Assembly: GCA_902805855.1 (NCBI GenBank)
Contig: CADCUJ010000028.1
Coordinates: 1-43,829 of the forward strand
DNA from: an uncultured Nocardioidaceae bacterium
GTDB lineage: Bacteria; Actinomycetota; Actinomycetes; Propionibacteriales; Nocardioidaceae
Reading direction: 5' to 3'
DNA length: 43,829 nt
Numbering within the stretch: position 1 is the stretch's first letter; each line of letters opens with the position of its first letter. Of the stretch, positions 14,564 through 29,340 are shown one piece after another. Both the position numbers and the translations under genes were made by a program. A model generated the notes under the pieces. That model did not search any database, was not told the origin of the DNA, and saw only the letters and a list, made by a program, of their open reading frames with translations.

Positions 14564-15319
14564 TCAGATCCGGGCGCCACCGTCGACGTACAACGTCTGG
14601 CCGGTGATGAACGACGCCTCGTCGCTGCACAAGAACGCGGCGGCCGCCGCGATGTCCTCCGGATAGCCCACCCGGCGGCCGGGAGTGCGCTCGGCCGCGA
14701 CCTTGCGGTACTCCTCGGGCTCCATCCCGACGCGGCGGGCGGTGGCGTCGGTCATGTCGGTGACGATGAAGCCGGGCGCGATCGCATTCACGTTGATCCC
14801 GAACGGGCCCAGCTCCAGGGCGAGCGTGCGGGTGAACCCCTGCAGACCCATCTTGGCTGCCGAGTAGTTGGCCTGACCCCGGTTGCCGAGCGCGGAGACG
14901 CTGGACAGGTTGATGATCTTGCCGGCCTTCTGGGCCACCATGTGCTTCTGCACGGCCCTGCTCATCAGGAACGACCCGCGAAGGTGGACGTTCATCACCG
15001 AGTCCCAGTCCTCTATGGACATCTTGAACAGCAGGTTGTCGCGGGTGACGCCCGCGTTGTTGACGAGGATGTGGGGTGCCCCTAGCTGATCGACCACCTG
15101 GTCGACCGCCGCGTCGACCGACGCCGCGTCGGAGACGTCACAGGCCACCCCGAGTGCCTGTTCGGCGTCGAGCGCCTTGGCGGTGGCCGCTGCTGCGTCC
15201 CGATCGACATCGAGTACGGCGACAGCGGCCCCCTCCGCCGCGAAACGCCGGGCCGTGCCTGCCCCGATGCCGCGGGCGGCACCGGTGACGACGGCCACCC
15301 GGCCGGCGAAACGGCTCAT
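14564..15319 (-). CDS. Short-chain dehydrogenase/reductase, FabG-like
   Basis: 251 residues, standard SDR length. Cofactor motif TGAARGIG (12-19), NNAG near 88, catalytic Ser in INLSSVSALG and YSAAK follow the classical order. The segment ALELGPFGINVNAIAPGFI and the C-terminal FITGQTLYVDGGARI are typical of 3-oxoacyl-ACP reductase-like SDRs. It may reduce a beta-keto acyl thioester with NADPH. No other fatty-acid gene is nearby, so a different substrate is possible. Ribosome site GGAAAGAGG lies upstream, and an unusual tandem repeat precedes it. Confidence 0.9.
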   Translation of the reverse strand: MSRFAGRVAVVTGAARGIGAGTARRFAAEGAAVAVLDVDRDAAAATAKALDAEQALGVACDVSDAASVDAAVDQVVDQLGAPHILVNNAGVTRDNLLFKMSIEDWDSVMNVHLRGSFLMSRAVQKHMVAQKAGKIINLSSVSALGNRGQANYSAAKMGLQGFTRTLALELGPFGINVNAIAPGFIVTDMTDATARRVGMEPEEYRKVAAERTPGRRVGYPEDIAAAAAFLCSDEASFITGQTLYVDGGARI

Positions 15320-15336
15320 CCTCTTTCCCCTGCCTT

Positions 15337-15399
15337 CCCGTTGAGATGGGCCCCGTGCCCGTCGAGATGGGGCCCGTGCCCGTTGAGATGGGGCTCGCG
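15337..15399. repeat. Three 21-bp tandem repeats upstream of the SDR gene
   Basis: Units at 15337-15357, 15358-15378 and 15379-15399 share the core CCGTTGAGATGGG (one has CGAG) followed by a GC-rich half. They fill the gap between the methyltransferase stop and the SDR start. The spacing is two helical turns, as for tandem protein-binding sites. Confidence 0.85.
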
Positions 15400-15411
15400 A
15401 CCCATCGAGCC
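15392..15411 (-). terminator. Small hairpin after the methyltransferase gene
   Basis: GGCTCG and CGAGCC arms with an 8-nt loop lie 12 bp after the methyltransferase stop on the minus strand. There is no T run. It could be a weak terminator; it overlaps the last 21-bp repeat unit. Confidence 0.3.
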
Positions 15412-15423
15412 GGCGACGCCACT

Positions 15424-16071
15424 CTAGTCAGCCGGGCGAGGCTGTGACGCGTGGCCCTCCGGCTTGGTCGCCGTGCCGAGGTACAGGTAGCTCAACACCT
15501 TCGGCCCCTTTTCGTAGAAGGTCTCGAGCCGGTCGATGGCGATGCCGGACGCGGCGATCTCGTCGGCGATGCCACGGTTCAGGTGACAGCCACCGGCCAC
15601 GCGGTACTGGATCGGCTGCAGCCGGTCCTGGCGCCGAGCGACGTCTGGGTCCGGGGCTCGTCCGTGCTCGACGAAGTGCAGTCGGCCTCCCGGCTTGAGC
15701 ACCCGAAGGAGCTCGCTGAGGGCGGCTTGCAGGTCCGGAATCGTGCACATGGTGAACGTGGACAGGGCGGTGTCGAAGGAGGCGTCGGGAAGGTCCAGCT
15801 CCTGGCCGTCGAGCCCCGAACGCCGTACCTCCGTCCGCGAGGATGCCAACCGCCTGCGGGCAAGCCGCCAGCCGACGTCGGAGGGTTCGACCGCTGCTAC
15901 CGACCGCACCGCCGCCGGGTAGTGCGGGATGTTGAGCCCCGAGCCGAACCCGATCTCCACCACGTCGCCGCGCAGACCGGCGCAGGTCCGATCGCGAAGC
16001 GGCGGGACCTCCCTGGTGTTCAACGCCAGGTTGGTGATCCGCGGGACGACGTGGTCGGTCCACCAAGCCAC
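15424..16071 (-). CDS. Class I SAM-dependent methyltransferase
   Basis: 215 residues from GTG 16071, 2 bp after the HIT gene stop. Motif I is VVEIGFGSGLNIPHY; the acidic ribose-binding position lies in VAAVEPSD. Then come FDTALSTFTMCTIPD (motif II-like) and LLRVLKPGGRLHFVEHG (motif III). This is the Methyltransf_11 / UbiE-like pattern. The substrate is not predictable; relatives act on small molecules or lipids. Tightly linked to the HIT gene. Confidence 0.9.
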   Translation of the reverse strand: MAWWTDHVVPRITNLALNTREVPPLRDRTCAGLRGDVVEIGFGSGLNIPHYPAAVRSVAAVEPSDVGWRLARRRLASSRTEVRRSGLDGQELDLPDASFDTALSTFTMCTIPDLQAALSELLRVLKPGGRLHFVEHGRAPDPDVARRQDRLQPIQYRVAGGCHLNRGIADEIAASGIAIDRLETFYEKGPKVLSYLYLGTATKPEGHASQPRPAD

Positions 16072-16073
16072 CG

Positions 16074-16490
16074 CTACTCCTTCAGGGCTGTCCGAAGACG
16101 GTCGACGTACTCCTTCGCCTCGGCGTCGTCGGCGTACCTCGTTCGCGGCCAGAAGAACCCACGCAGGCCGTCACCCTTGGTGCGGGGGACGACGTGCAGA
16201 TGCAGATGCGGCACGCTCTGGCTGACCACGTTGTTCATCGCGACGAATGAGCCTTGCGCGCCGAGGCCCGCGACCACCGCCCCGGCCAGGCGCTGCGCGG
16301 CGTGCAGGAACGGGTCACGCATCTTTGCGGGCAGGTCCGTGAGTGTGTCGACGTGCTCGCGCGGCACCAGCAGGGTGTGGCCCTTGAACACCGGACGGTG
16401 GTCGAGGAAGGCGACCATCTCGGGAGTCCGGAGCACGACCGGTGCCGCGACGTCGCCGGCGACGATGCCGCAGAACAGGCATTCAGCCAC
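16074..16490 (-). CDS. HIT-family nucleotide-binding hydrolase (Hint-like)
   Basis: 138 residues. It starts ECLFCGIVAGDVAAPVV and contains FLDHRPVFKGHTLLVPREH, with the histidine triad HLHLHVV near residue 95. HIT proteins of this type hydrolyse purine nucleoside phosphoramidates or adenylyl conjugates in the cytoplasm. The N-terminal CxxC (Cys4, Cys7) is typical of the zinc-containing subgroup. It lies 6 bp downstream of the GlsB/YeaQ gene and just ahead of the methyltransferase gene, so the three are probably co-transcribed. Confidence 0.93.
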   Translation of the reverse strand: MAECLFCGIVAGDVAAPVVLRTPEMVAFLDHRPVFKGHTLLVPREHVDTLTDLPAKMRDPFLHAAQRLAGAVVAGLGAQGSFVAMNNVVSQSVPHLHLHVVPRTKGDGLRGFFWPRTRYADDAEAKEYVDRLRTALKE

Positions 16491-16496
16491 CGGAGG

Positions 16497-16757
16497 CTAG
16501 GTCTTGCGCGAGGATGCAGCGCCTTCGGCGATCCCGAGGAGGAGTACGGCGGCGACCACGGCCACCACGAAGCCCAGGAAGTCGAGCTCCCAGATGCTGC
16601 CGGTGCCGAGGAGGCCGGCGATGATGCCGCCGATGAGGGCGCCGGCAACGCCCAGCACCAGGGTCAGCAGCAGCCCGATGGCCTGCCGGCCCGGCTTGAG
16701 CAGTCGGGCAAGGGCTCCGATGATCAGCCCCACCACGATGAGTCCGAGAATTTGCAT
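16497..16757 (-). CDS. GlsB/YeaQ/YmgE family small membrane protein
   Basis: 86 residues with three hydrophobic helices: ILGLIVVGLIIGALARLL, LTLVLGVAGALIGGIIAGLL and LGFVVAVVAAVLLLGIA. The Gly-rich spacing and the GRQAIG loop are characteristic of this stress-associated inner-membrane family of unknown function. A good ribosome site (AGGAGGGGA) precedes the ATG. Confidence 0.93.
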   Translation of the reverse strand: MQILGLIVVGLIIGALARLLKPGRQAIGLLLTLVLGVAGALIGGIIAGLLGTGSIWELDFLGFVVAVVAAVLLLGIAEGAASSRKT

Positions 16758-16796
16758 GGCCGGGTCCCCTCCTGGGCGGTGCGGTGTGACCCGACC

Positions 16797-17096
16797 CTAC
16801 CTGCCCCCCCGGCGTCGAGCCTCAACCGCCAGGTGCACAGTCACGATGTCGCCCACGTCGATCGCCTCGGCTTTGCGCACCATGTCCTTCACCTGCACGA
16901 CGTACCCACCGTCCTTGGGGAACAGCGAGGTCGTCCACCGCGTCGACCCGATCTCGACCTCGACCGGGATCATCGCCCAGCCATAGGTCACCAGCGCCGA
17001 CGTCGCCGCGAGCTCGTCGCTCTCGTCTTGGGGCACGTTGACGAAGTGGTACGGCGAGGGGCCGCGCCAGAACCAGACCTCTCCGCTGAACTCCAC
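16797..17096 (-). CDS. DUF1905 domain protein
   Basis: 99 residues from GTG 17096 (VEFSGEVWFWRGPSPYHFVNVP). The block WTTSLFPKDGGYVVQVKDMVRKAE and the end VGDIVTVHLAVE match DUF1905, a small beta-rich domain of unknown activity sometimes fused to YdeI/OmpD-like domains. No strong ribosome site is seen, so the start is uncertain. It lies between the ssrA terminator and the GlsB/YeaQ gene, 39 bp from the latter. Confidence 0.85.
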   Translation of the reverse strand: MEFSGEVWFWRGPSPYHFVNVPQDESDELAATSALVTYGWAMIPVEVEIGSTRWTTSLFPKDGGYVVQVKDMVRKAEAIDVGDIVTVHLAVEARRRGGR

Positions 17097-17151
17097 CCGG
17101 TCAGCATGAGGACGAGCGACTGCGCACCCGGCGGCGGCGACGGGATGACGA

Positions 17152-17179
17152 AGGGGCCCACGCTGCTGCGTGGACCCCT
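17152..17179 (-). terminator. Terminator of ssrA
   Basis: On the minus strand AGGGGTCCACGC and GCGTGGGCCCCT form a 12-bp stem (one T-G pair) with the loop AGCA, followed by TCGTC. It starts about 20 bp after the tmRNA 3' end. Confidence 0.8.
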
Positions 17180-17199
17180 CGGTTTGAGTGGTCGGTCGG

Positions 17200-17566
17200 T
17201 GGAGCTGGCGGGAATCGAACCCGCGTCCTTCGGCGCCGAACCAGGGCTTCTCCGGGTGCAGTCTGCGATGGCGCTTTCTCAGTCCCGGCACTCGCGCAGA
17301 CGCGTCGCCGGCGGACTCAGCCACTAGCTAGTCCCGATGAGCCCCAATGGCGAGGACTCAGCAGCAAGCCTCCTAGCTGAGGCCAGGTCCTGAGGCGGAG
17401 GCGTCCTCAGGCTGACCCTTCACTGGTCGCCGTCAGGCGGCGAGAGCGAAGTTACTGCGCTTGGTATCGGCAGTTATTGGTTCCCAAAGGTCGTTAACGA
17501 GATGACTTTGGATCCTCGACCCGCTTCCCCTGGAACTAGCGTCCCAAGTCGAAACCGTTCAGCCCC
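17200..17566 (-). ncRNA. ssrA: Transfer-messenger RNA (tmRNA)
   Basis: The 5' end GGGGCTGAACGGTTTCGACT (17566 leftward) and the 3' end with GGGTTCGATTCCCGCCAGCT are the tRNA-like halves; GGGGCTG pairs with CAGCTCC. The internal tag frame reads ADTKRSNFALAA then TGA (about 17464-17426). The final ALAA is the signal recognised by ClpXP-type proteases. After the acceptor stem the gene has ACCG, so the CCA end is not fully encoded and must be completed after transcription. It rescues stalled ribosomes together with SmpB, encoded 1.5 kb away. Confidence 0.97.
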
Positions 17567-17711
17567 TGTTGAGTTGTGTGGTCAGTCTACCTGTCGCAAC
17601 CTTCAGTGCGCCCGTACCTATTCCGGGTCTTGGAGGGCGGTACGTCGGTCGCCCGGCCAGGTCCACACCCGCTGCGAAGTCACTCTGGACTTGTCGGTGG
17701 CCAGCGATAGC

Positions 17712-17729
17712 ATCGAACACATGTTCGAT
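17712..17729. promoter_or_regulatory. LexA (SOS) box overlapping the DUF222/HNH start
   Basis: ATCGAACACATGTTCGAT is a perfect 18-bp palindrome. Its core TCGAAC-N4-GTTCGA is the mycobacterial/actinobacterial LexA consensus. It covers the proposed ATG (17721). A -10-like TAGCAT (17708-17713) sits 7 bp before the ATG, which would suit a leaderless transcript blocked by LexA. Confidence 0.8.
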
Positions 17730-19031
17730 AGAGTCGCTGCCGGTTCAGCCCAGCGGATGCCTGCTGCTGCTGAGCTGGCGATCTTCCTGGCACGGCTGGG
17801 CGCGCCGACACCTGGCTTGACCGACGCGGAACGGATCGACCGGATCGACGTGTTGGAACGACTGAAGAGCGCGGCGGCTGCGGCGCAGGCCGGGCTCACC
17901 GTCGACTTCGACGCCTCCCAGCGCGCCGAGCAGGCCGCTGCCGGGGTGCCGGCCAGGGAACAGGGCCGAGGTGTCGCGAGCCAGGTAGCGCTGGCCCGTC
18001 GGGACAGTGCGGTCAAGGGCAGCCGTCACCTCGGTCTGGCCAAGGCGCTGGTACTCGAGATGCCGCACACCCTGGCCGCGCTCGCAGCGGGCGAGATCAG
18101 CGAGTGGCGAGCCACGATCATGGTGCGAGAGACGGCGGTGCTCAGCGTCGAGCACCGAGGACGCATCGACGGTGACCTGGCCGGGCGGCTCGGCTCCCTG
18201 GGCGACCGCGGGGTGGAACGCGAGGTGAGGAAGCTGGCGTACCGGCTCGACGCCGGGTCTGCGCTTCGCCGGATCCGCGGTGCCGTGGCCGACCGACGCG
18301 TCACGATCCGGCCCGCACCGGACACGATGGCCCGCCTGACCGGGCTGCTCCCCGTGGCCCAGGGCATCGCGGCGCACACCGCGCTGTCGCGGCACGCCCA
18401 CGCGGCCAAGGCCTCCGGAGACCCGCGCTCACGGGGACAGATCATGGCCGACACGCTCGTCGAACGGGTGACCGGACAGGAGCATGCCGAGGCCGTCCCC
18501 GTAGAGGTGAACCTGGTGATGACCGACCAGGCGTTGCTCGCCGGTGGCGACACGCCGGCTCGGCTGGAAGGATACGGACCGGTCCCGGCGGCCCTCGGCC
18601 GGTCCCTGGTGAGAGGCTCAGGACCGCTCGCCGAAGCCGCCGATGTGTGGCTGCGCCGGCTCTTCGCCGACCCGGACACCGGCGACCTGGTGGCGCTGGA
18701 GTCTCGTCGCCGGTGCTTCACCGGTCTGCTGCGCCGGTTCCTGGTGATCAGGGACGAGGCCTGCCGCACCCCGTGGTGCGACGCCCCGGTTCGCCACGGC
18801 GACCACGTGGTTCCCGCCGCAAGCGGAGGACTCACCTCCGCCGAGAACGGCCAAGGGCTCTGCCAGACCTGCAACCACGCCAAGCAGGCGAAGGGCTGGG
18901 AGGCCGCGGCCTCCCGCGCCGGTCCTGGGGCCGCGGTCGTGGTGGTGACCCCGACCGGACACACCTACCGGTCGGTTGCCCCACCGCTGCCTGGACCCAC
19001 GCCGTCTCCGAGCATCGCCGGGGCCGCGTGA
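17721..19031 (+). CDS. DUF222 domain protein with C-terminal HNH endonuclease domain (13E12-type)
   Basis: 436 residues from ATG 17721; the frame is open further upstream, but that part overlaps the ssrA 5' end. A long DUF222 region (about 30-300) is followed by an HNH domain: RDEACRTPWCDAP, then HGDHVVPAASGG, N (SAENGQGLC) and CQTCNHAKQAKGW, giving two Cys pairs and the catalytic His-Asn. Such genes (13E12 repeat family in Mycobacterium) are multicopy in many actinobacteria, may be mobile-element relics or nicking enzymes, and some carry LexA boxes. Here the LexA box overlaps the start, so DNA damage should induce it. It lies between ssrA and smpB and converges on smpB with 13 bp between stops. 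Confidence 0.9.
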   Translation: MFDRVAAGSAQRMPAAAELAIFLARLGAPTPGLTDAERIDRIDVLERLKSAAAAAQAGLTVDFDASQRAEQAAAGVPAREQGRGVASQVALARRDSAVKGSRHLGLAKALVLEMPHTLAALAAGEISEWRATIMVRETAVLSVEHRGRIDGDLAGRLGSLGDRGVEREVRKLAYRLDAGSALRRIRGAVADRRVTIRPAPDTMARLTGLLPVAQGIAAHTALSRHAHAAKASGDPRSRGQIMADTLVERVTGQEHAEAVPVEVNLVMTDQALLAGGDTPARLEGYGPVPAALGRSLVRGSGPLAEAADVWLRRLFADPDTGDLVALESRRRCFTGLLRRFLVIRDEACRTPWCDAPVRHGDHVVPAASGGLTSAENGQGLCQTCNHAKQAKGWEAAASRAGPGAAVVVVTPTGHTYRSVAPPLPGPTPSPSIAGAA

Positions 19032-19044
19032 GCGTTCGGTCAGC

Positions 19045-19521
19045 TCACTCCATGCCCTTGAGCTGCCGGCCGAGCGCCTGCTGCTTCTCGCGGTTGGCCT
19101 GCCGCTCCGCAAGCGCGTGCCGCTTGTCGTAGGACTTCTTGCCTCGCGCGGTCGCCAGCTCCACCTTGGCGCGGCCGTCCTTGAAGTACATCGACAGCGG
19201 CACCACCGTCAGCCCCCGCTCGTTGACCCGGCTCTCGATCTTGTCGATCTCGGCGCGGTGCAGCAGCAGCTTGCGCACCCGTCGCGGTTCGTGGTTGGTC
19301 CAGGTGCCCTCGGTGTACTCCGGGATGTGCACGCCGTGCAGGTACGCCTCGCCCTCGTGCACCTCGGCGAACCCGTCCACTAGGGAGGCCCGGCCTGCAC
19401 GCAGCGACTTGACCTCGGTGCCGGTGAGCACCAGCCCCGCCTCGAAGGTGTCCTCGACGAGGTAGTCGTGGCGCGCCTTCTTGTTCTGCGCGATCAGCTT
19501 CTGCCCCTGCTGCCTGGCCAT
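19045..19521 (-). CDS. smpB: SsrA-binding protein SmpB
   Basis: 158 residues from ATG 19521 ([20 protein letters not shown]). The core [21 protein letters not shown] and [18 protein letters not shown] are diagnostic. The basic C-terminal tail ([20 protein letters not shown]) enters the decoding centre in known structures. It partners tmRNA encoded nearby. A longer reading from an upstream ATG ([13 protein letters not shown]) lacks family support. Confidence 0.97.
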
Positions 19522-19573
19522 GGCCCTATCTTCGCAGCACGGCAAACTCTCCAGGCGGCCCCGACCAGGCGGG

Positions 19574-20956
19574 TCACAGCCAGTTCAACGGGTCGACGGC
19601 CGTCCCGCTCTCGAAGACCATGAAGTGCAGGTGGCAGCCGGTCGAGTACCCCGTGGTGCCGACGTACCCGATGATGTCGCCGCGCTTGACCTTGTCGCCG
19701 ACGGAGACCGAGTCGGAGCTGAGGTGGTTGTACGACGTGCCGAGGCCGACGCCGCGGTGGAAGCCGTTGTCCAAGATGATCCGGTTGCCGTAGCCGGCGT
19801 TGAAGTACGTCGCCAGCACGGTCCCGCTTGCGGCTGCCCGGATCGGCGTGCCGCACGGGGCTCCGAAGTCGGTCCCGTCATGAAGTGCCCACCGGTGGTA
19901 GACCGGGTGGAACCGCATCCCGTAGTGGGAGGTGATGTAGGTGTTGACCGGGAAGTCGAGGAACCCATTCGACCGGCGCCTGCCGAGGTCGACGGCTCCC
20001 TGTGCCGATGCTGCAGCAGCGGCCGCGGCCGCCGCGAGCAAGCGCGCCTCCTCAGCCTTCTGCTCCAAGAGCTCGGAGATCCGCAGCTGTTCCTGCTGCA
20101 GCCCGCGAAGGTGCTCCAGGTCGGCCTCTCGAGCAGAGACGGCGGCACTGTGCGCGCTCTCGCGCAGGGCGGCTAGGTCGGCGACGCGGGCCTCGGCGTC
20201 CTGCGCGGCCGACGCCAGCGCCCGCTTGCGCTCCAGGTTGGCGGCAGCCTCCTCACGTTGTACGGCGACCCGCTCCCTGGCCTGCTGGACCTCCTCCTCC
20301 TGCACCTCGAGCAGGATCCGGGAGACTTCGAGCCGGTCGAGTGTGGCCGACTCCTTGTCCATCACGCTGCGCACGGAGTTCAGCTGGCTGGACAGACCGC
20401 TCGGGTCCTGGGAGTGCAGCACCATCGACAGCCCGAGCAGCGCCGGGTCGCCGCTCTGGTAGTTCTGCACGGCGATCTGACCGAGCGTCTCCTCCTGCCT
20501 GGCCACACCGGCGCGGCTCTCGGCCAGCGCCGCACGGGCCTCGCGCAGTCGCCGTACCGCCTGGTGCAGCTTGTGCTGCATCTGCCGGTCCAGGCTCTTG
20601 GCGGCACTCAGCTCACCGCGCGCCTCGGCCAGGTCCTCTTGGGCCCGGTCCAGCTCGATCCGGGCGGCCTCGAGTGCGCTCGTGGCGGCCACCAGCTCTG
20701 CGCTGGACTGGTCCAGGTCGGCCTGGGTCTCATCGATCGCACCGTCGAGCCTCTGCTGCTGGTGCTCCAGCCCGGACTTCTCGTGCGGGTCGGTGTGCGG
20801 GGACTGCTCGGCGGAGTGCGGCCCCGGCTGCTCGGTCGCACTCCCCGGCTCGCCCCCGCCACCCTCGGCGGCGACAGCGGGCGTGACGCCCACTGCGATG
20901 AGCAGGCCCGCGGTCGCGAGAGCGCACGCGAGCACCCGGGGAGATGGAGGAGTCAC
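19574..20956 (-). CDS. Secreted coiled-coil M23 peptidase, EnvC/PcsB/RipC-like (paralogue 1)
   Basis: 460 residues from GTG 20956. Signal peptide ([23 protein letters not shown]), a low-complexity stretch, then a long heptad-rich coiled coil (about 60-300, Gln/Glu/Ala/Leu rich) and a LytM/M23 domain at the C-terminus. Zinc and catalytic residues are His359 and Asp363 (HDGTDFG) and HLH (442-444), so the enzyme looks active rather than a degenerate activator. It follows ftsX by 79 bp. In other bacteria such coiled-coil hydrolases or activators are docked and switched by FtsEX. Closely similar to the gene at 22816-24099. Confidence 0.93.
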
Positions 20957-21035
20957 CGATCAGCCTTTGCCAGTTGAAATTCGTATCAAACTGACCGTAA
21001 CCGACTTAACTCGGGCTTTTACCCGGTTTGCCTCA
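20957..21035 (-). promoter_or_regulatory. AT-rich gap between ftsX and the first M23 gene
   Basis: This 79-bp stretch is clearly more AT-rich than its surroundings. On the minus strand it holds a small CGGG-TAAAAG-CCCG hairpin and then an imperfect inverted repeat, CAGTTTGA-TACGAAT-TTCAACTG. A separate promoter for the M23 gene, perhaps with an operator, is plausible; no exact -35/-10 assignment is made. Confidence 0.35.
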
Positions 21036-21956
21036 TCACACCCTGAGGTACTTGCGGGTCATCACCAGGGTTGGCACTAGCGACAGCGTCAGCCCGATCA
21101 CCGCGATCCAGCCGACCGCCCAGAAACCGTCACTCCAGTCGACCCAGGCGACGATGTTCGAGGTGGGTCGGAGCATCTGGTAGATCACCAGGTACATGAA
21201 CACCAGGAGCGCGCCTGCGGCCAAGCCCACCCCGAGCAGCGCGGCCAGCAGCGACTCCAGCAGGAACGGCAGCTGGATGTAGAGGCTGGAGGCCCCGACC
21301 AGGCGCATGATCCCGATCTCACGTCTCCGGGCGAAGGCCGCCAGCCGGATCGTGTTGCCCACCTGGAGCACCGCGGCGACCACCAGGAAGGCGGCCACGC
21401 CGATCGCTCCCCACTTCATCACGTTCATCCAGAAGTAGATCGGCTTGAGCACGTCGCGAAGGTCGCGCACGCTGTCCACACCGGGTTGGGTGGCGACGGC
21501 CGTCTTGATGTTCTGGAACCGCTCCGGGTTCTCGAGCTGCACCCAGTAGGACTCCTGCATGTCCGAGGCCCGGATCGACTCGAAGACCCGCTGCTCGGTG
21601 CCGTCCTCGGCGACGTAGGCCTCCTTCCACTTCTCGTAGGCCTCCTGCTTGCCCTGCAGGCGCCAGGACGCGACCTGGGCGTTGGTGCTGAGCACCTGCT
21701 CGATCTCGTTCTTCTGCGCCTTGGTCGCCTCGCCGTTCACGCAGTTGGAGCTCGCGGAGTTCTGGTTGCAGAGGAAGACCGTGATCTGGAGCTTGTTCCC
21801 CCAGTACTCCTCGGCCTTGTCGGCCTGGGCGTTCAGGAGCAGCCCCATCCCGACCAGGGTCAGGGAGACGAAGATCGTCACGATGACTGCGATGGTCATG
21901 GACACGTTGCGACGCAGCCCGTTGCCGAGCTCGGAGAATACGTAGGTCAGCTGCAT
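21036..21956 (-). CDS. ftsX: Cell division protein FtsX
   Basis: 306 residues. TM1 (MTIAVIVTIFVSLTLVGMGLLL) is followed by a large extracellular loop (about 45-170) with a Cys pair (FLCNQNSASSNC). Three further helices, including GAIGVAAFLVVAAVLQVGN and LLESLLAALLGVGLAAGALLVF, complete the four-TM FtsX/PermF topology. With FtsE it forms an ABC-type complex that does not transport but gates periplasmic hydrolases at the division site. It follows ftsE by 30 bp. The extracellular loop is the likely contact for one or both flanking M23 proteins. Confidence 0.96.
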   Translation of the reverse strand: MQLTYVFSELGNGLRRNVSMTIAVIVTIFVSLTLVGMGLLLNAQADKAEEYWGNKLQITVFLCNQNSASSNCVNGEATKAQKNEIEQVLSTNAQVASWRLQGKQEAYEKWKEAYVAEDGTEQRVFESIRASDMQESYWVQLENPERFQNIKTAVATQPGVDSVRDLRDVLKPIYFWMNVMKWGAIGVAAFLVVAAVLQVGNTIRLAAFARRREIGIMRLVGASSLYIQLPFLLESLLAALLGVGLAAGALLVFMYLVIYQMLRPTSNIVAWVDWSDGFWAVGWIAVIGLTLSLVPTLVMTRKYLRV

Positions 21957-21986
21957 GCGAGGGTTTCCTGCCGAAGTCGGTGCGGG

Positions 21987-22676
21987 TCAGTGCTGGTAGC
22001 CGTACACGCCGCGCGCCTGGTCCCGCACCACGTGTCCGTCCGAGAGCTCGATGACGCGCTTGCGCATCTGGTCGACGATGCCGGCGTCGTGGGTGGCCAT
22101 CAGCACGGTGGTTCCCGTGCGGTTGATCCGGTCCAACAGCTTCATGATGCCCACCGAGGTGTTCGGGTCCAGGTTGCCGGTCGGCTCGTCGGCGATCAGG
22201 ATCGTCGGCCGGTTCACGAAGGCGCGCGCGATCGCGACCCGCTGCTGCTCACCGCCGGACAGCTCGTCCGGCATCCGTGAGGCCTTGCCGTCCAGTCCGA
22301 CGAGCTCGAGGGTCTCCGGGACGACCCGGTTCACGTGGGCGCGCGGCTTGCCGATCACCTGCAGCGCGAAGGCGACGTTCTGGGCGACGGTCTTGTTCGG
22401 CAGCAGCCGGAAGTCCTGGAAGACCGTGCCGATCTGCCGGCGCAGACCAGGTACCTTCCACTGCGGAAGCCGGTCGATCTCCTTGCCGGCGACGAACACC
22501 TTGCCGCGCGTGGGCCGCGCCTCGCGCAGGATCAGGCGCAGGAACGTGGACTTGCCGGAGCCGGAGGCGCCGACGAGGAAGACGAACTCGTCCTTCTCGA
22601 CCTCCACGTTCACGTCGGAGAGCGCAGCACGCCCTTGGGCGGCGTACAGCTTGGAGACGTTCTCGAAGCGGATCAC
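21987..22676 (-). CDS. ftsE: Cell division ATP-binding protein FtsE
   Basis: 229 residues from GTG 22676 ([11 protein letters not shown]); the frame extends upstream but without family-like sequence. Walker [10 protein letters not shown], signature LSGGEQQR and Walker [17 protein letters not shown] are intact, and the switch His sits in MATHDAG. It powers FtsX. There is no good ribosome site, so the start rests on family similarity. The M23 paralogue 2 gene ends up about 140 bp upstream of... this gene's start on its 5' side, on the same strand. Confidence 0.96.
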
Positions 22677-22815
22677 AGGTTTGGGCGGTCGGGCTCGGGG
22701 ACACGGGTGTTTCGGCTGCGCAGCCTCGTCCTCGCCCGGCAGCCAACCGACCAATCAAGCAGTCTAGGTGACTTCGCCGGGTCTCCCCAGCGACCGGTGT
22801 GACTGGTGGCGGGAC

Positions 22816-24099
22816 TCACAGCCACTTCATGGGGTCCACCGTCGACCCGTCACGGAACACCATGAAGTGCAGATGGCAGCCCGTGGAGTACCCGGTGTTG
22901 CCGACATAGCCGATGACCTCGCCGCGCTCGACCCGTTCGCCGACGTGGGTGGAGTAGCCGCTCAGGTGGTTGTACGACGTGCCGAGGCCGGCGCCTGCCT
23001 CGAAGCCGCTGTCCAGGACCACCCGGTTGCCGTAGCCGGCGTTGTAGTAGCGAGCGACCACGGTGCCCGCCGAGGCTGCCCGAACCGGGGTGCCGCAGGC
23101 CGCTCCGAAGTCGGTGCCGTCGTGCAGCGTGTAGCGACCGTAGACCGGGTGCAGGCGCATCCCGTAGTGAGAGGTGATGTAGGAGTCGACCGGGTAGCTC
23201 AGCAGGCCGGGTGCCTGACGCACCGCCTCCTGCGCCCGAGCCGCCGCACGGGCCGCTGCCCGACGCCGAGCCGCCTCCGCCCGCTTGCGCAGCAGGGCTT
23301 CGATCTGGTTCCGCTCCCGCTCCAGGCCGCGCAGCTCCTCGAGGTCTGCTGCCTTGGCCTTCGCGGCTTCCCTCCGGGCGTCGGCCCGCTTCTCGGCCAG
23401 TGCGGCGACCGTCGCCTCCTCCTGCTCGGCTCGAGACTCCAGCGCCGCCTTGCGCGCGAGGTTCTCCGCGGCTGCCCTGCGCTGGTCGGCCACGTCGCGC
23501 TTGGCGAGCTGGTACTCGCGCTCCTGGACGGTGAGCACGACGCGGGAGGCGTCGAGGCGGTCGAGCGTCATCGCCTCCTTGTCGAGCACGCTCCGCACCG
23601 AGTTGAGCTGGCTGCTGAGCTCGGTGGGTCGCTGCGAGGTGAGCACCATCGACAGACCGAGCAGGGCAGGGTCGCCGGACTGGTAGTTCTGCACCGCGAG
23701 CTGACCAAGCACCTCCTCCTGCTCGGCCACGATCGCGCGACCGGTGGCGAGCTCCTGCCTGGCGTCGTCCAGGCGGGCGATCGAGGTGTCCAGCTTCGCC
23801 TGCATCTGGCGGTCCAGCACCTCGGCGACCGCGAGCTCACCGCGAGTGCGCGCCAGCTGGTCGCGGGCGGAGCTCAGCTCGGCTCGAGCGTCCTCGAGCG
23901 CCTTCGTGGCTACCACCAGCCGGTCCGTGGAGTGGTCCAGATGCCGCTCGACGGCCCTGATGTCTCCGCGGACCCGGTCCTGGCGGTCCCGCAGGTCGTC
24001 TGCGACGGCGGCCGGAAGTCCTGCGCACAAGACCGCGCAGCAGAGCACGACGACGGCCACCAGATGGCGCCGGTCACTGCGGGGGACATGGCGGAACAC
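22816..24099 (-). CDS. Secreted coiled-coil M23 peptidase, EnvC/PcsB/RipC-like (paralogue 2)
   Basis: 427 residues from GTG 24099 (VFRHVPRSDRRHLVAVVVLC) with AGAGG about 10 nt upstream. Signal peptide ending near GLPAAVADD, coiled coil (about 45-270) and C-terminal M23 domain with His326/Asp330 (HDGTDFG) and HLH (409-411). It shares long near-identical stretches with the other M23 protein, for example [18 protein letters not shown] and [10 protein letters not shown]. It therefore arose by duplication, and ftsEX now lies between the copies. The intact catalytic residues suggest both are active. It lacks the Pro/His-rich segment that follows the signal peptide in paralogue 1. Confidence 0.93.
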   Translation of the reverse strand: MFRHVPRSDRRHLVAVVVLCCAVLCAGLPAAVADDLRDRQDRVRGDIRAVERHLDHSTDRLVVATKALEDARAELSSARDQLARTRGELAVAEVLDRQMQAKLDTSIARLDDARQELATGRAIVAEQEEVLGQLAVQNYQSGDPALLGLSMVLTSQRPTELSSQLNSVRSVLDKEAMTLDRLDASRVVLTVQEREYQLAKRDVADQRRAAAENLARKAALESRAEQEEATVAALAEKRADARREAAKAKAADLEELRGLERERNQIEALLRKRAEAARRRAAARAAARAQEAVRQAPGLLSYPVDSYITSHYGMRLHPVYGRYTLHDGTDFGAACGTPVRAASAGTVVARYYNAGYGNRVVLDSGFEAGAGLGTSYNHLSGYSTHVGERVERGEVIGYVGNTGYSTGCHLHFMVFRDGSTVDPMKWL

Positions 24100-24256
24100 T
24101 GAGGTGCCTCTGCTGTCGTCGGTCAACGGGGAAGGGATTGATCTGCGACTGTTTCGAAGGTAGCCGACGGTGCGGCCGGAACTGCGCATTGCCGAGCCGA
24201 CGGACCCCGCGCGCCGTGGACCGGTGCACGCGGCACGCGGCGCGGCTGGTGACCGT

Positions 24257-24272
24257 GCCGGTGGCCACCGGC
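24257..24272. terminator. Perfect palindrome at the prfB stop
   Basis: GCCGGTGGCCACCGGC, a 16-bp perfect inverted repeat, begins at the last base of the prfB stop codon. No T run follows. It may slow or stop transcription between prfB and the M23 gene; the rest of the 172-bp gap (24100-24271) holds only GC-rich sequence with no clear promoter. Confidence 0.4.
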
Positions 24273-25399
24273 TATGCCCGCTCCGCGGCGGCGACCTTGT
24301 CGGCACCACGCCGCCAGCGGATCCCCGCCTCGAGGAAGGCGTCGATGTCGCCGTCGAAGACGGCCTGCGGGTTCCCGGTCTCGTAGTCCGTGCGGAGGTC
24401 CTTGACCAGCTGGTACGGATGCAGCACGTAGTTGCGCATCTGGTCGCCCCACGAACCCTGCACGTCGCCGCGGAGCTCGTCGAGCTGGGCTCGTTCCTCG
24501 GCCTTCTTGAGCACGAGCAGCTTCGCCTTGAGGATCACCATCGCGCTGGCCTTGTTCTGCAGCTGGCTCTTCTCGTTCTGACAGCTCACCACGATCCCGG
24601 TCGGGATGTGCGTCAGCCGGACGGCGGAGTCGGTGGTGTTCACCGACTGTCCGCCGGGACCCGATGAGCGGTACACGTCGACCCGGATCTCGTCCTCGGG
24701 AACCTCGATGTTGTCGGTCTGCTCGAGGACCGGAACGACCTCGACCGCGGCGAACGATGTCTGCCGGCGCCCCTGGTTGTCGAACGGGCTGATCCGCACC
24801 AGTCGGTGCGTGCCCGCCTCCACCGACAGCGTGCCGTAGCCGAAGGGGGCGTGGATGGCGAAGGTGGCCGACTTCAGGCCAGCCTCCTCGGCGTAGGAGG
24901 TGTCGAAGACCTCGACGGGGTACTTGTTGCGCTCGGCCCAGCGGGTGTACATCCGCATCAGCATCTCGGCGAAGTCGGCCGCGTCCACACCTCCGGCACC
25001 GGACCGGATGGTGACCAGCGCCTCCCGGGCGTCGTACTCACCGGAGAGCAGCGTGCGGACCTCGAGCTGCTCGACCGCCTTCTGGAGCCTGGGAACCTCC
25101 GCCTCGGCCTCGGCGAGCGCTTCTGCGTCGCCCTCCTCCCGAGCCAGCGTGGCCAGCACCCCGAGATCCTCGATCCGGGACTCCAGCGAGGTGAACCGGT
25201 CCAGCTCGCCCTGCAACGCCGACAGCCGGCCGGTCACCCGCTGCGCGTTCGCCTGGTCGTCCCACAGGTCCGGCGCAGCCACCTGCTCCCCGAGGTCGGC
25301 GAGCTCGGCCCGCATGGCGTCGAGGTCGAGCACCTGCTCGATGGTGTGCATCGTCGCCTGCAGCGCCTTGACCTGGGTGTCGAAGTCGGGTGCTGCCAC
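24272..25399 (-). CDS. prfB: Peptide chain release factor 2
   Basis: 375 residues from GTG 25399 ([14 protein letters not shown]). The stop-codon-reading SPF tripeptide is in [15 protein letters not shown] and the catalytic GGQ in [18 protein letters not shown]. It terminates at UGA and UAA. The N-terminal region reads through without the in-frame TGA and frameshift site that many bacteria use to autoregulate prfB, so that control is absent here. prfB upstream of ftsE is a common actinobacterial arrangement; here an M23 gene is inserted between them. Confidence 0.96.
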
Positions 25400-25409
25400 C
25401 CGGCCAAGG

Positions 25410-25679
25410 TTACGTGACCGGCGACCCGCCCTCGGGCCACCCGGTCTGGGTGCCGGTGTCCGTGGACGACGAGGAGGCGGAGTGGCTGCGTACCTTGTCC
25501 GAGGCGGTGCCCGCGGCGTCCTTGGCCGCGTGCTTGGCCTCGTCGACCTTCTGCTGGACGTTGGGGTTGTTCCGGATCTTCTGCGCCTGCTGGGAGATCT
25601 GGTCGTACCGCTCGCGCCCCGCCTTGGCCCCCAGGACGTAACCGATGGCACCGGCGCCGAGAAGCATGAGTTTCCTCAT
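25410..25679 (-). CDS. YtxH-like small membrane-anchored protein
   Basis: 89 residues. A short hydrophobic N-terminus with glycines ([24 protein letters not shown]) is followed by a charged helical stretch ([21 protein letters not shown]) and a Ser/Thr-rich tail. This is the YtxH-like pattern seen in general stress proteins. Ribosome site GGAGTGGGAG is upstream. A candidate stress-sigma promoter lies 43 bp before the start. It ends 10 bp before prfB on the same strand. Confidence 0.8.
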
Positions 25680-25722
25680 CGAGCTCCCACTCCTTCAGAT
25701 GTAGGTCAGTGTGTCCGCGCTC

Positions 25723-25747
25723 TTACCCATCCGGCGTCTTCCCAACC
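25723..25747 (-). promoter_or_regulatory. Candidate SigB/SigF-type promoter for the YtxH-like gene
   Basis: On the minus strand GGTTG (25747-25743) and GGGTAA (25728-25723) are separated by 14 bp. This resembles the GGTTT-N14-17-GGGTA pattern of actinobacterial SigB/SigF-class promoters. A SigB/F/G-type gene lies 3 kb away. Confidence 0.45.
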
Positions 25748-25750
25748 AAC

Positions 25751-25776
25751 GCATGCCGAGGGCCTGCCCAGGGTAT
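25751..25776 (+). promoter_or_regulatory. Weaker candidate stress-sigma promoter for the FAD-Rieske gene
   Basis: GCAT (25751-25754), a 16-bp spacer and GGGTAT (25771-25776) fit the loose GNNT-N14-16-GGGTAT form of the same promoter class. The -35 match is poor; the -10 is exact. Confidence 0.3.
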
Positions 25777-25813
25777 GGAAACTGCACAGCGGGCAAGCCG
25801 AGGAGGAGGACGG

Positions 25814-27358
25814 ATGCCGACGCAAGCGGGCGCGTCGTACTGGATGCAGTCCAGCGTCCGGCCTCCGGCAATGCCTGCGCTGGACAGTGACATCAGCGTC
25901 GACGTCGCGGTCGTCGGGGCAGGTGCCGCCGGGCTCAGCGTCGCCCACGAGCTGACTCACGCGGGTCGGTCCGTCGCGCTGCTCGAGGCCGGCGACGTGG
26001 CTGGCGGTGTCACCGGACACACGACGGCGAAGGTGTCCGCGCTGCACGGCGCGTGCTACCACCAGTTGAGCTCCCAGCTCGGTCCCGAGACGGCGCGGCA
26101 CTACGCGACCGGCCAGGTGCTGGCGATGCGGCATGTCGAGCACACGGTCGAGCGGCTGGGGATCGAGTGCGACCTGGAGGCTCGACCGGGATTCGTCTAC
26201 GGGGAGGACGAGGCCGACGTCGAGGTGCTGCGCAACGAGGCGGCAGCCGCGAGGCGGGCGGGCCTTGCGGCGACCTACACCACAGACACCGGGCTGCCCT
26301 TCCCCACCGTGGGTGCGGTGCGGGTCGAGGACCAGCTGATGTTCCACCCCACCAGGTACTTCCGGGCAGTCGCAGCCGACATCGTCGCCAACGGCGGCGC
26401 GGTCTACGAGCACACTCGGGTCAGCGAGCTGACCCAGCGCGGGCCGTGCGTGCTCACCTGTGAGAACGGCGCCCGGGTGCTGGCTCGAGACGTCGTGGTG
26501 ACCACGCACTACCCGGTCTTCGACCGGTCCCTGTTGTTCGCCCGGTTGACCCCCAAACGGGAGTTCGCCGTGGCCGGGCTCGTCGCCGAGGCCGACGATC
26601 CCCCCGGGATGTACATCAACCTCGGCCAGGACACGCGTTCGGTGCGCAGTGCGCCGTACGACGACGGACGACGCCTGCTGATCGCGACCGGTGCTCCGTT
26701 CACGCCGGGTGACTCCACCGTCCAGGAGCGGATCGACGAGCTGACCGGCTGGCTGTGCTCGAACTTCGCTGTCGAGGAGGTATCGCACAGCTGGGCCGCT
26801 CAGGACAACAGCACCGGTGACCGGCTCCCGTTCATCGGCCCGCTGCACCCGAACGCAAAACACGCCTGGGTGGCCACCGGGTTCGGCGGCTGGGGGATGA
26901 CCAACGGCGTGCTCGCCGGTCTCCTCCTCCGCGACCTGATCGACGGACGCGTTCCCGAGTGGGGGCGGATCTTCGACACCCGACGCACGCACGCCCGGTT
27001 GGAGGCGGCCACCGTCGCCAAGAGCGGCGTCCGCACCATCTCGCACCTGGTCGGCTCCCGGCTGCGCGCGACGCTGGAGTCGGTCCCATCGCCCGAGGCG
27101 CTGGCGCCGGGGACAGCCGGCCTGGTCACCGACGAGGAAGGCAGCTGGGCGACGTACGTCGACGAGGCCGGCCTCTCGCACGCGGTCTCCTCCACCTGCA
27201 CCCACATGGGCTGCATGATCTCCTTCAACGACGTCGAGCGGGAGTGGGAGTGCCCCTGCCACGGGTCCCGGTTCGCCCTCGACGGATCGGTGCTGCAAGG
27301 TCCGGCGACCTCACCGCTGCGCCGGCGCTCGTCCACGACGCGGCCCGCCTATCGGTGA
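25814..27358 (+). CDS. FAD-dependent oxidoreductase (DAO family) with C-terminal Rieske [2Fe-2S] domain
   Basis: 514 residues from ATG 25814, with GGAGGAGG just upstream. The N-terminal FAD site is VDVAVVGAGAAGLSVAHEL and the ATG motif is RLLIATGAPF. The DAO body ends with HAWVATGFGGWGMTNG. The Rieske cluster ligands are Cys462/His464 (CTHMGC) and Cys480/His483 (CPCHGS). The expected flow is oxidation of a substrate amine or acid by FAD, with electrons passed to the Rieske centre; the substrate is unknown. The last 12 residues (RRRSSTTRPAYR) do not look like a Rieske end, and a nearby frame gives a better one, suggesting a frameshift near 27320. Confidence 0.88.
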   Translation: MPTQAGASYWMQSSVRPPAMPALDSDISVDVAVVGAGAAGLSVAHELTHAGRSVALLEAGDVAGGVTGHTTAKVSALHGACYHQLSSQLGPETARHYATGQVLAMRHVEHTVERLGIECDLEARPGFVYGEDEADVEVLRNEAAAARRAGLAATYTTDTGLPFPTVGAVRVEDQLMFHPTRYFRAVAADIVANGGAVYEHTRVSELTQRGPCVLTCENGARVLARDVVVTTHYPVFDRSLLFARLTPKREFAVAGLVAEADDPPGMYINLGQDTRSVRSAPYDDGRRLLIATGAPFTPGDSTVQERIDELTGWLCSNFAVEEVSHSWAAQDNSTGDRLPFIGPLHPNAKHAWVATGFGGWGMTNGVLAGLLLRDLIDGRVPEWGRIFDTRRTHARLEAATVAKSGVRTISHLVGSRLRATLESVPSPEALAPGTAGLVTDEEGSWATYVDEAGLSHAVSSTCTHMGCMISFNDVEREWECPCHGSRFALDGSVLQGPATSPLRRRSSTTRPAYR

Positions 27359-27367
27359 GGTGAGCCG

Positions 27368-27850
27368 GTGTCGATGCAGCGGACGGGGCGACCCGGTGGA
27401 CCGGGCGAGGAGTCCGAGCAAGAGAAGCTGACCCGGAACTTCAACGAGCTTCTTCAAGAGCTCCGGGTGACCCAGACCGGCGTGCAGATCCTCACCGGTT
27501 TCCTGCTCACGGTGCCGTTCTCGGCCCGGTTCCCAATGCTGGACTCGCTGCAGCGCAATGCCTACCTGGCGATCTTGTGCGGTTCCGTGCTGGCCACCGG
27601 GCTGATCGTCGCCCCGGTCGCGTTCCACCGGCTGCTGTTCCGCCAGGGGGAGCGGCGGTGGATCGTCGAGGCCGCCAACACCTCGGCCCGCGCCGGGCTG
27701 CTGATGCTGGCGCTGACAACCGCGGGCGTCGTCTGGCTGGTCTTCGACGTGGTCACTTCGACGGCGACGGCTCACGTCTTCGGCGCCGCCGCCCTGGTCT
27801 TCTTCCTGGTCCTCTGGGCGGTGGTCCCGTGGCTCGGCCGGAGCCGGTGA
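27368..27850 (+). CDS. DUF6328 family membrane protein
   Basis: 160 residues from GTG 27368 (an ATG follows two codons later). A hydrophilic, acidic N-terminus (EESEQEKLTRNFNELLQELRVTQTGVQIL) precedes four hydrophobic helices, including LTGFLLTVPFSARF, LAILCGSVLATGLIVAPVAF and AALVFFLVLWAVVPWL. The ELRV(T/A)QTGVQIL block is typical of the family. Function unknown; located in the cytoplasmic membrane. It follows the FAD-Rieske gene by 9 bp, so probably co-transcribed, and ends 22 bp from the convergent oxidoreductase gene. Confidence 0.85.
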   Translation: MSMQRTGRPGGPGEESEQEKLTRNFNELLQELRVTQTGVQILTGFLLTVPFSARFPMLDSLQRNAYLAILCGSVLATGLIVAPVAFHRLLFRQGERRWIVEAANTSARAGLLMLALTTAGVVWLVFDVVTSTATAHVFGAAALVFFLVLWAVVPWLGRSR

Positions 27851-27872
27851 CCGGTCCGGGGCTCGCGTCCAC

Positions 27873-28478
27873 TCAGTCCGGCGGTGCCTGCATGGGGTAG
27901 GCGCTCAGCGCCTGGGCGACCGTGACCAGGTTCGCCGCCATCGCACGGCCGGTCATCTGGGACCAGTCATGGCCCTGCTCGGTGTCGCTGTAGGTGGGAC
28001 CCGGGCCGGGACCCATGTTCCAGTAGGTCCAAGCTTGCCCGGGCACAGTGAACCCGACGTCGACCAGGCCCTGGACGATGTCGGCGATCACATGGTGTGC
28101 GCCGTCCTCGTTGCCGGTCACCACCACACCGCCCACCTTGTTGTAGGCCACCGGCCTGCTCTGGTCGTCGGTCTCCGACAGCATCGCGTCCAGCCGCTCG
28201 AGCGCCCGCTGCGCGATCGAGGACGGATGGCCGAGCCAGGTCGGGGTGGCGAGGACCAAGATGTCCGAGCCGAGGATCGACTCGTGCACGCGCGGCCACT
28301 CGTCCCCGTCCCCCATATCGGTCTCGACGCCCGGTCGGATATCGAGGTCCACCAGGCGGAACACCTCGGTCTCGACACCGCGGGACTTCATCGCCGCTAC
28401 GACGTGCGCTGCCAGGGACGCGGTGTTGGATTCTTCCGGACTCGGCTTGAGCGTGCAGTTAAGCAGCGTCGCCCGCAT
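27873..28478 (-). CDS. Flavodoxin-fold NAD(P)H-dependent oxidoreductase
   Basis: 201 residues. The N-terminal NCTLKPSPEESNTASL is the FMN phosphate-binding loop of the flavodoxin/FMN-reductase fold, and ILVLATPTWLGHPSSIAQRALER is the second flavin-contact region. GGVVVTGNEDGAHH follows. Members reduce quinones or other acceptors with NAD(P)H. It starts inside the sigma-factor gene (20-bp overlap in another frame), so the two are translationally linked and probably share the same stress response. Confidence 0.88.
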   Translation of the reverse strand: MRATLLNCTLKPSPEESNTASLAAHVVAAMKSRGVETEVFRLVDLDIRPGVETDMGDGDEWPRVHESILGSDILVLATPTWLGHPSSIAQRALERLDAMLSETDDQSRPVAYNKVGGVVVTGNEDGAHHVIADIVQGLVDVGFTVPGQAWTYWNMGPGPGPTYSDTEQGHDWSQMTGRAMAANLVTVAQALSAYPMQAPPD

Positions 28479-29340
28479 GCATCTCCCGTCCCGTGCCGTC
28501 GGAGGTGTCGGTCAGCTCGGTGCGCAGGTCGGTGAGGATCCGGGCCAGCAGCCGGGACACCTGCATCTGGGTGACGCCGATGTCCTTGGCGATCTGCTCC
28601 TGGGTCCAACCGTGGAAGAAGCGCAGCTCGATGATCCGACGGTCGCGTTCCCGTAGCTGCCGAACAGCCGGCGCCAGCAGGATACGAGCCTCGGCCCGGC
28701 CCAGGCCGGAGTCGTCCTGGCCGAGCAGGTCACCGAGCGAGGTGGACCCGTCCTCCCCCACCGGGACGTCTAGCGAGGCCGGCGTGAAGCAGCCGTCCGC
28801 CCCGAGCGCCTCGATCACCGCGTCGACGGGGACGCCGAGATGGTCTGCCACCTCGCTGGGACGCGGGGAGCGGTGCAGCGTCTGCGAGAGCTCGTTGGAC
28901 GCGCGCGAGATCTGGGCTTGCAGCTCCTGCACCCGTCGGGGCGGGCGCACTGTCCAGCCGAAGTCACGGAAGTACCGCTTGACCTCGCCGGTCACCGTGG
29001 GCACGGCGTAGCTGAGGAAGTCCCGCTCGAAGCTGGGGTCGAACCCCTGCGCGGCCTTGACCAGGCCGACGTACGCCGCCTGCATCAGGTCTTCCTTGCT
29101 GATGCCGCGGTCTCGGTAGCGGGCGGCGATCGCACGCGCCACGCCCATGTTCAGCACGACCACCTCGTCGCGCAGCCGCTTGCACTCGGTCTCGTCGCTG
29201 GTCTCGGCGACCTTGCGCAGCAGGCGGGCGGTGATCTCGCTCCGGTCGGCTTCGGGGAGCCCCAGTCCGGACTCCGGCGCACCGGTGGCGAACGGCTCGT
29301 CGTCGACGAGGGCAGGTCGAAGTTCAGGTGTAGCAGTCAT
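28459..29340 (-). CDS. RNA polymerase sigma factor, SigB/SigF/SigG type
   Basis: 293 residues. Region 2 holds NMGVARAIAARYRDRGISKEDLMQAAYVGLVKAAQGFDPS and FLSYAVPTVTGEVKRYFRDFGW. Region 3 has RRVQELQAQISRASNELSQ, and region 4 ends with WTQEQIAKDIGVTQMQVSRLLARIL, the HTH that reads the -35. This is the stress/sporulation-type sigma-70 group without region 1. No anti-sigma or anti-anti-sigma gene is next to it, which is unusual for the group. It overlaps the downstream oxidoreductase gene. AT-rich sequence upstream likely carries its promoter. Confidence 0.93.
   Translation of the reverse strand: MTATPELRPALVDDEPFATGAPESGLGLPEADRSEITARLLRKVAETSDETECKRLRDEVVVLNMGVARAIAARYRDRGISKEDLMQAAYVGLVKAAQGFDPSFERDFLSYAVPTVTGEVKRYFRDFGWTVRPPRRVQELQAQISRASNELSQTLHRSPRPSEVADHLGVPVDAVIEALGADGCFTPASLDVPVGEDGSTSLGDLLGQDDSGLGRAEARILLAPAVRQLRERDRRIIELRFFHGWTQEQIAKDIGVTQMQVSRLLARILTDLRTELTDTSDGTGREMHAGDAA

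Follow-up and report, generated by a model that had tools for sequence, protein, structure and literature searches.

In the published accounts covered here, FtsEX is described with one dedicated partner. EnvC docks on FtsX through the end of its first helix (residues 114-128) and the start of its second (141-160), with one EnvC per two FtsX domains (1:2) (PMC7668044), and the FtsEX-EnvC complex of Pseudomonas aeruginosa is of 2:2:1 composition (PMC11627006). FtsX also holds RipC directly, by way of the RipC coil (PMC10694151, PMC11627006), and Tyr111 and Met112, at the end of the first helix of RipC, were required for FtsX binding in pull-downs (PMC10694151). Here, we describe a locus on contig CADCUJ010000028.1 (assembly GCA_902805855.1) of an uncultured Nocardioidaceae bacterium, analysed as one window of 43,829 nucleotides, in which ftsE and ftsX lie between two paralogous genes for M23 endopeptidases, M23up on the ftsE side and M23dn on the ftsX side.

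The genes stand on the minus strand in the order prfB, M23up, ftsE, ftsX, M23dn and smpB (Table 1), both M23 genes being open reading frames (ORFs) on the strand of ftsEX. This order, together with matches to Pfam Peptidase_M23 (PF01551; 92.5 bits for M23up and 93.6 bits for M23dn, cut-off 28.7), NCBIfam FtsX_actino (356 bits, cut-off 250) and TIGR02673 FtsE (284.5 bits, cut-off 264.85), confirms an earlier reading of the letters (hereafter the sequence-only reading), which had placed an M23 gene on each side of ftsE-ftsX on one strand. BLASTP aligned the two proteins with 241 of 398 residues identical (61%, E 8e-155), and their catalytic domains are 71% identical. The long identical stretches reported previously are also present, the one quoted falling inside a 19-residue run of M23up (residues 135-153) that is identical in M23dn. 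The zinc residues, likewise reported as intact, can be followed across the family: His326, Asp330, His378, His409 and His411 of M23up are invariant in 46/46 aligned proteins, both window copies included, and are presumably the zinc and catalytic residues of M23 enzymes (HxxxD, NH and HxH). Judged by their sequences, both proteins look catalytically intact.

Within the coil, the two proteins are most similar at the predicted hairpin tip, with 38 of 44 residues identical over M23up 132-175 (86%) versus 109 of 209 elsewhere in the coil (52%; Fisher p 1.8e-5). The same tip shares 39 of 44 residues with that of the single copy in Nocardioides jiangsuensis (G003), one of three genus relatives compared, the others being the metagenome-assembled genomes TY_ISSM_2_bin.39 (G001) and UBA4001 (G002). 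Mapped by helix ends, the parts of M23up that match the docking helices of EnvC would lie at about residues 126-140 and 158-177; between 126 and 177, 42 of 52 residues are identical in M23dn, including Tyr139, a position at which 34 of 46 family members have Tyr or Phe. We considered gene conversion at the tip and found it unsupported: of its 37 identical residues with degenerate codons, 13 (35%) are encoded by different codons in the two genes, compared with 26-50% elsewhere.

AlphaFold2 models of the two proteins (mean predicted local distance difference test score, pLDDT, 83 for both) follow a common plan, in which two long helices, separated by a short tip helix, are followed by a flexible linker and then by the M23 domain; the three helices of M23up lie at residues 59-140, 144-154 and 158-288. 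Each model shows a coiled-coil hairpin with a tip and a C-terminal hydrolase-type domain, on a protein that is secreted to judge from a signal peptide recognised by eye. A Foldseek search, made with the M23up model alone, returned EnvC chains from FtsX complexes as its two best matches (8tzl_E and 6tpi_A). VIA-align listed the same two chains for M23up, with a root-mean-square deviation of 35-42 because the domains are placed differently in the model and in the EnvC chains, and EnvC chains could be aligned along most of the family profile (8i6o_E over positions 53-428 of 429, 6tpi_A over 76-429, and others). Both proteins scored below the cut-off of 270 bits for the EnvC equivalog NF008644 (M23up 41.4, M23dn 30.4), and Pfam gave M23 alone in each, with no NlpC/P60 domain of the kind present in RipC. 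The second long helix runs past the hairpin and could act as a restraining arm for self-inhibition.

We consider it on balance probable that two FtsEX-gated endopeptidases alternate on one FtsX in this organism, with docking, gating, expression and competition all being points that we infer. FtsEX would hold an M23 endopeptidase by its coiled-coil tip, and would release its self-inhibition through the ATP cycle of FtsE. The lineage would have duplicated a gene that is normally single downstream of ftsX, apparently with its promoter included, and one copy here occupies the interval from prfB to the ftsE leader, which in close relatives houses a small antisense gene. With docking tip and active site kept in both products, both would most likely dock on the same FtsX, and the two enzymes would share the FtsEX pool by taking turns, providing a higher dose or modest specialisation. 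Alternate use is likelier than joint use because one coil fills one FtsX dimer in the solved complexes (PMC7668044, PMC11627006). The sequence-only reading had proposed that the two enzymes compete for, or jointly occupy, FtsX; both do look FtsX-gated, from the EnvC matches of M23up and from the tip being the most similar part of the coil, but joint occupancy is less likely given the 1:2 and 2:2:1 complexes.

Several results weigh against alternation on one FtsX. The predicted template modelling scores are just 0.50 and 0.52, at which the placing of domains in both models is unreliable, and pLDDT drops at the tip (about 71-77 over residues 141-170 of M23up). A sequence search of the PDB with the coil alone recovered no EnvC, and gave tropomyosin chains only (E 0.002-0.01). 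In 45/45 pairs of ten proteins, copies unlinked to ftsX included, similarity is higher at the tip than in the remaining coil (ratio 1.13 to 1.66); conservation of the tip is therefore expected for any FtsX partner of the family, and is no proof of simultaneous or equal binding. Across 69 genomes, a sliding-window mirror-tree test gave no peak at the tip, and partial correlations with the FtsX ectodomain were 0.22 for M23dn 159-210 (a stretch shifted six residues from the named docking part), 0.20 for the rest of the coil and 0.17 for the catalytic domain. Finally, a RipC-like protein encoded on another contig than ftsEX (L167, G000 C10) has a coil-like region (by eye), a tip-like segment and an NlpC/P60 domain; it could be the true partner of FtsX, or FtsX may face three candidate partners, L167 included.

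We investigated the distribution of the arrangement in relatives. ftsX was located in 116 of 120 genomes of the family, and 80 of those 116 loci were examined, along with 30 of 37 ftsX-bearing genomes of family f2 and 60 of 106 ftsX-bearing genomes of the class beyond the family. A same-strand M23 gene follows ftsX in all 80 Nocardioidaceae loci, scoring as one gene in 79 and as two in UBA4001. The downstream M23 gene of UBA4001 (contig C84, L078) is split into two overlapping frames around an unknown base, possibly through an assembly flaw. smpB comes after the M23 gene in 75 of the 80 loci, the remaining five stretches showing no smpB, and in two loci the M23 gene and the ftsX frame are separated by more than 1 kb (1.3 and 6.7 kb). 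Within the stretch examined, downstream M23 genes were also identified in 25/30 f2 loci and 31/60 other class loci.

None of the 80 Nocardioidaceae loci, none of the 30 f2 loci and none of the 60 other class loci has a same-strand M23 gene ahead of ftsE. This amounts to 0/170 other actinobacterial ftsX loci, in 163 of which (73/80, 30/30 and 60/60) at least 600 bases before ftsE are visible, TY_ISSM_2_bin.39 being among the seven exceptions. Among the matches listed in an order-wide search, in which 144 of 147 genomes were matched, no further genome had a closely spaced pair of M23 matches. Thus, the downstream M23 gene is standard in the family, and the upstream gene is the oddity. The gene-order comparison that the sequence-only reading had suggested accordingly goes against bracketing as a conserved arrangement, since the upstream copy is absent from its place in 163/163 visible loci; dual gating in this organism stays compatible with that absence.

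The origin of the second copy was approached through trees of the M23 proteins. In a tree of 83 rows, from which nine rows shorter than 380 residues had been left out, all eight copies of the genus formed one group (95). M23dn joined three syntenic copies of relatives (Shimodaira-Hasegawa-like approximate likelihood ratio 96), and M23up fell outside the syntenic group, with the unlinked copies L155 (TY_ISSM_2_bin.39) and L153 and L154 (UBA4001). These three copies lie on stretches without ftsX, and no clear common neighbourhood was found among them and the window with a crude picking of genes, the sole non-M23 cross-match being dehydrogenase-like (35% identity). Unlinked relatives of M23up are accordingly known from two of the three same-genus genomes, the copy in TY_ISSM_2_bin.39 being on a contig of doubtful binning, and N. 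jiangsuensis gave no extra M23 copy at E 1e-30. Contig coverage in TY_ISSM_2_bin.39 is 134 for L155 (C313) versus 9.9 for the ftsX contig (L074, C25). L155 may be wrongly binned and not truly of this genome, in which case L153 and L154 of UBA4001 remain.

A tree of both copies had also been suggested as a means of dating the duplication. The 83-row tree, as described, sets M23dn with the syntenic copies and M23up outside them. In a 20-row tree, forcing M23up and M23dn to be sisters costs 7.6 log units with an approximately unbiased (AU) test p of 0.14, such that sisterhood is not rejected, and support for M23up with L155 is 88 in a coil tree, compared with just 23 for M23up with L153 in the full tree. 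Six copies from the neighbouring genus g12 group with the syntenic copies in the 20-row tree (89/85); on that placing, the duplication would predate the separation of the two genera. A recent duplication in this genome alone is disfavoured by the position of M23up outside the syntenic group in the 83-row tree, but the AU value tempers this. From the sequences, we tentatively read the expansion as being of about the age of the genus.

The unlinked copies bear on an alternative in which M23up is a duplicate freed from FtsEX control, free or differently gated, that lies beside ftsE by chance. The occurrence of L153, L154 and L155 on ftsX-free stretches indicates that linkage is not needed for persistence, and the upstream place is seen in this genome alone; against this, the tip of M23up has stayed as close to those of M23dn and of the N. 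jiangsuensis single copy as the counts above show, and we regard release from FtsEX as unlikely, though worth keeping in view.

We identified a promoter-like motif before both genes. The 13-base pattern GTCGGYTACSKTC has exactly three sites in the genome, one before each M23 gene and a third inside an ORF resembling (by eye) a 2-oxoacid dehydrogenase component; the pattern was written after the sites had been seen, so that its rarity is partly by construction, and the independent support comes from relatives. There, the looser form SGYTASSKTC is present in the 160 bases preceding 42 of 77 syntenic copies, versus 0.5% of random stretches from the same loci, and in 19 of those 42 it stands 46-49 bases before the start used. 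Among the unlinked copies, GTTACCGTC precedes the likely start of L155 by 50 bases, just a weaker TACGGT precedes the start of L154, by 39 bases, and none was seen upstream of L153. Positions 19000-24600 yielded neither a sigma-70 consensus promoter nor a terminator, and the motif is therefore termed only promoter-like. The sequence-only reading had given M23dn an AT-rich upstream region of its own, as a sign of distinct control. The region is real, at 48% GC versus 69.5% for the window, yet it is no peculiarity of this genome, as the corresponding gap has 47% GC in N. jiangsuensis and 53% in TY_ISSM_2_bin.39; with an AT-rich gap common to single-copy relatives and the same 13-base motif before both genes, distinct control is not borne out. 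Both window copies seem to have retained an ancestral promoter, pointing to shared control.

This common motif, and the similarity of the catalytic domains, argue against a split of the copies by task, in which for example M23dn would serve septum splitting and M23up another site, with different timing. The proteins do differ at about 40% of positions, and M23dn, unlike M23up, carries a long disordered linker ahead of its coil, both of which favour such a split. The Pro/His-rich stretch that follows the signal peptide of M23dn, described previously as an extra linker, is real in the sequence and modelled as disordered, yet the pre-coil part of M23dn (62 residues, median 39 in 46 rows) is exceeded in three of the 46 rows, including L155 with its over-called start. 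We consider a division of tasks improbable.

The gap between prfB and ftsE, where M23up lies, was inspected in six close relatives (N. jiangsuensis, UBA4001, G014, G049, G061 and G081). In all but the last it measures 708-849 bases and contains an oppositely oriented open frame, the five products being alike by eye, with a common stretch like LSxLPxxRxxFC and a start that is lipoprotein-like in N. jiangsuensis and UBA4001 and of membrane-anchored look in G014, G049 and G061; in G081 the gap is of 81 bases only. No Pfam family was found for the N. jiangsuensis product (P0002), and a search of the window genome gave no convincing copy of this antisense gene, with one 51-residue match (E 0.0044). 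The sequence CCTAGACT before ftsE is common to the window, N. jiangsuensis, G014, G049, G081 and G061 (the view of UBA4001 ended short of the site), and M23up therefore sits between prfB and a conserved ftsE leader. Although the source genome is a draft (2.64 Mb, 113 contigs, 97.9% complete), and the upstream side of ftsE is cut off at a contig end in TY_ISSM_2_bin.39, an assembly error that set a paralogue belonging elsewhere beside ftsE is very improbable, since M23up runs unbroken between prfB and the relative-like ftsE leader inside one 43.8 kb contig, and copies just 61% identical offer no long identical repeat to drive a false join.

Trees of the separate parts suggest that the catalytic domain has a history of its own. 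In the coil-only tree, six of the eight genus copies stand beside g12 (12-row group, 96), with L153 and L154 outside this group in a wider one (91). In the FtsX tree, four genus members stand with g12 (10 rows, 92, not starred), the window FtsX falling among the g12 rows (88, not starred). In the catalytic-domain tree, with L078 and L106 left out, seven genus copies join 21 rows of other genera in a 28-row group (100). AU tests rejected a grouping of the genus with those 21 rows for FtsX (p 7e-7), and with g12 for the catalytic domain (p 1e-4), the groups having been chosen after the trees were seen and the catalytic alignment being short. Module exchange of the catalytic domain in the stem of the genus is likely on these sequences. 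A fuller account, in which a single FtsEX alternates between the two flanking active endopeptidases, their tips kept alike by the shared FtsX, the rest of their coils diverged, and the catalytic module taken earlier from another lineage, is possible as a whole but tentative; it would make this locus a naturally occurring FtsEX whose tools are exchangeable. The domain comparison points to a cutting module that can be replaced without parting the docking coil from its FtsX, a point relevant to the variety of domains (M23, NlpC/P60 or CHAP) that different bacteria attach to one switch.

Table 1. Features of the ftsEX locus and its surroundings (window positions unless a locus is named)
Feature	Position	Strand	Remarks
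M23up	22816..24099	minus	427 aa; signal peptide (by eye) followed by a coiled-coil hairpin and an M23 endopeptidase domain; GTG start chosen
M23up catalytic domain	22831..23127	minus	Pfam M23 match; conserved residues intact
M23up predicted hairpin tip	23575..23706	minus	codons 132-175; likely FtsX docking part; 38/44 identical to M23dn
M23dn	19574..20956	minus	460 aa; signal peptide (by eye) and Pro/His-rich linker ahead of a coiled-coil hairpin and the M23 domain; copy at the standard site
M23dn catalytic domain	19589..19885	minus	Pfam M23 match
M23dn predicted hairpin tip	20351..20482	minus	codons 159-202
M23dn Pro/His-rich linker	20783..20866	minus	about codons 31-58; from sequence; pLDDT <50 at 22-43 and 47-54
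ftsE	21987..22676	minus	NCBIfam TIGR02673, above cut-off
ftsX	21036..21956	minus	NF038346 FtsX_actino, above cut-off; FtsX_ECD
prfB, upstream neighbour	24272..25651	minus	ORF as listed, start provisional
smpB, downstream neighbour	19045..19545	minus	ORF as listed
Promoter-like motif GTCGGCTACCTTC before M23up	24156..24168	minus	motif search
Promoter-like motif GTCGGTTACGGTC before M23dn	20993..21005	minus	motif search
Promoter-like sequence CACCTAGACT before ftsE	22761..22770	minus	by sequence
Small antisense gene	L075:4538-5206	minus	secreted or lipoprotein-like product; equivalents in L078, L076, L073 and L080

We additionally noted several features around the locus. A tmRNA gene lies near smpB (17197-17566, minus strand), its end overlapped by an HNH-endonuclease ORF as listed (17502-19031, plus strand) whose start is probably over-long, and an Rfam scan of positions 15000-29000 gave nothing at gathering score besides this tmRNA. 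Some 5 kb downstream from smpB, its strand carries a further NlpC/P60 hydrolase gene (13786-14367, minus), and positions 25709-27355 (plus strand) encode a Rieske domain fused to an FAD oxidoreductase. The window FtsE is 85-90% identical to the FtsE of five relatives, which share 88-95% among themselves; from these identities, the lineage of the window genome seems to evolve fast.

Within the open literature, covered mostly by titles and the openings of abstracts and with subscription papers mostly outside it, we found no report of two M23 partners beside ftsEX, nor of this gene in Nocardioides. A close counterpart in domain plan is FtsEX-EnvC of Escherichia coli, P. aeruginosa and Vibrio cholerae, with a coiled-coil hairpin and a C-terminal LytM/M23 domain in a protein that acts with FtsEX (PMC7668044, PMC11627006). 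E. coli EnvC is without zinc residues and activates amidases (PMC11627006), whereas the window proteins keep the conserved residues and should, on their sequences, both cut peptidoglycan themselves; moreover, two candidate partners are present here in place of one. With FtsEX-RipC of mycobacteria and corynebacteria the locus shares an FtsX that fits the actinobacterial FtsX model, but RipC carries an NlpC/P60 domain and the window pair M23. FtsEX-PcsB and FtsEX-CwlO of Firmicutes offer a directly gated coiled-coil hydrolase (PMC11627006, PMC6473061, PMC6403190), as would be the case here, although with a CHAP domain in PcsB and NlpC/P60 in CwlO, and one partner per FtsEX in those accounts. Among the single-M23 loci of the Nocardioidaceae, M23dn has its direct equivalents, occupying their place and grouping with the syntenic copies of the genus, and it is the second copy upstream of ftsE that sets the window apart from the 73 of 80 loci in which that side is visible. 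The two-sided M23 arrangement is an unusual local variant of the known FtsEX system, and with two intact candidate partners of near-identical tip, it would make the choice of partner by FtsEX, competition between partners, and the deciding residues outside the tip accessible to study.

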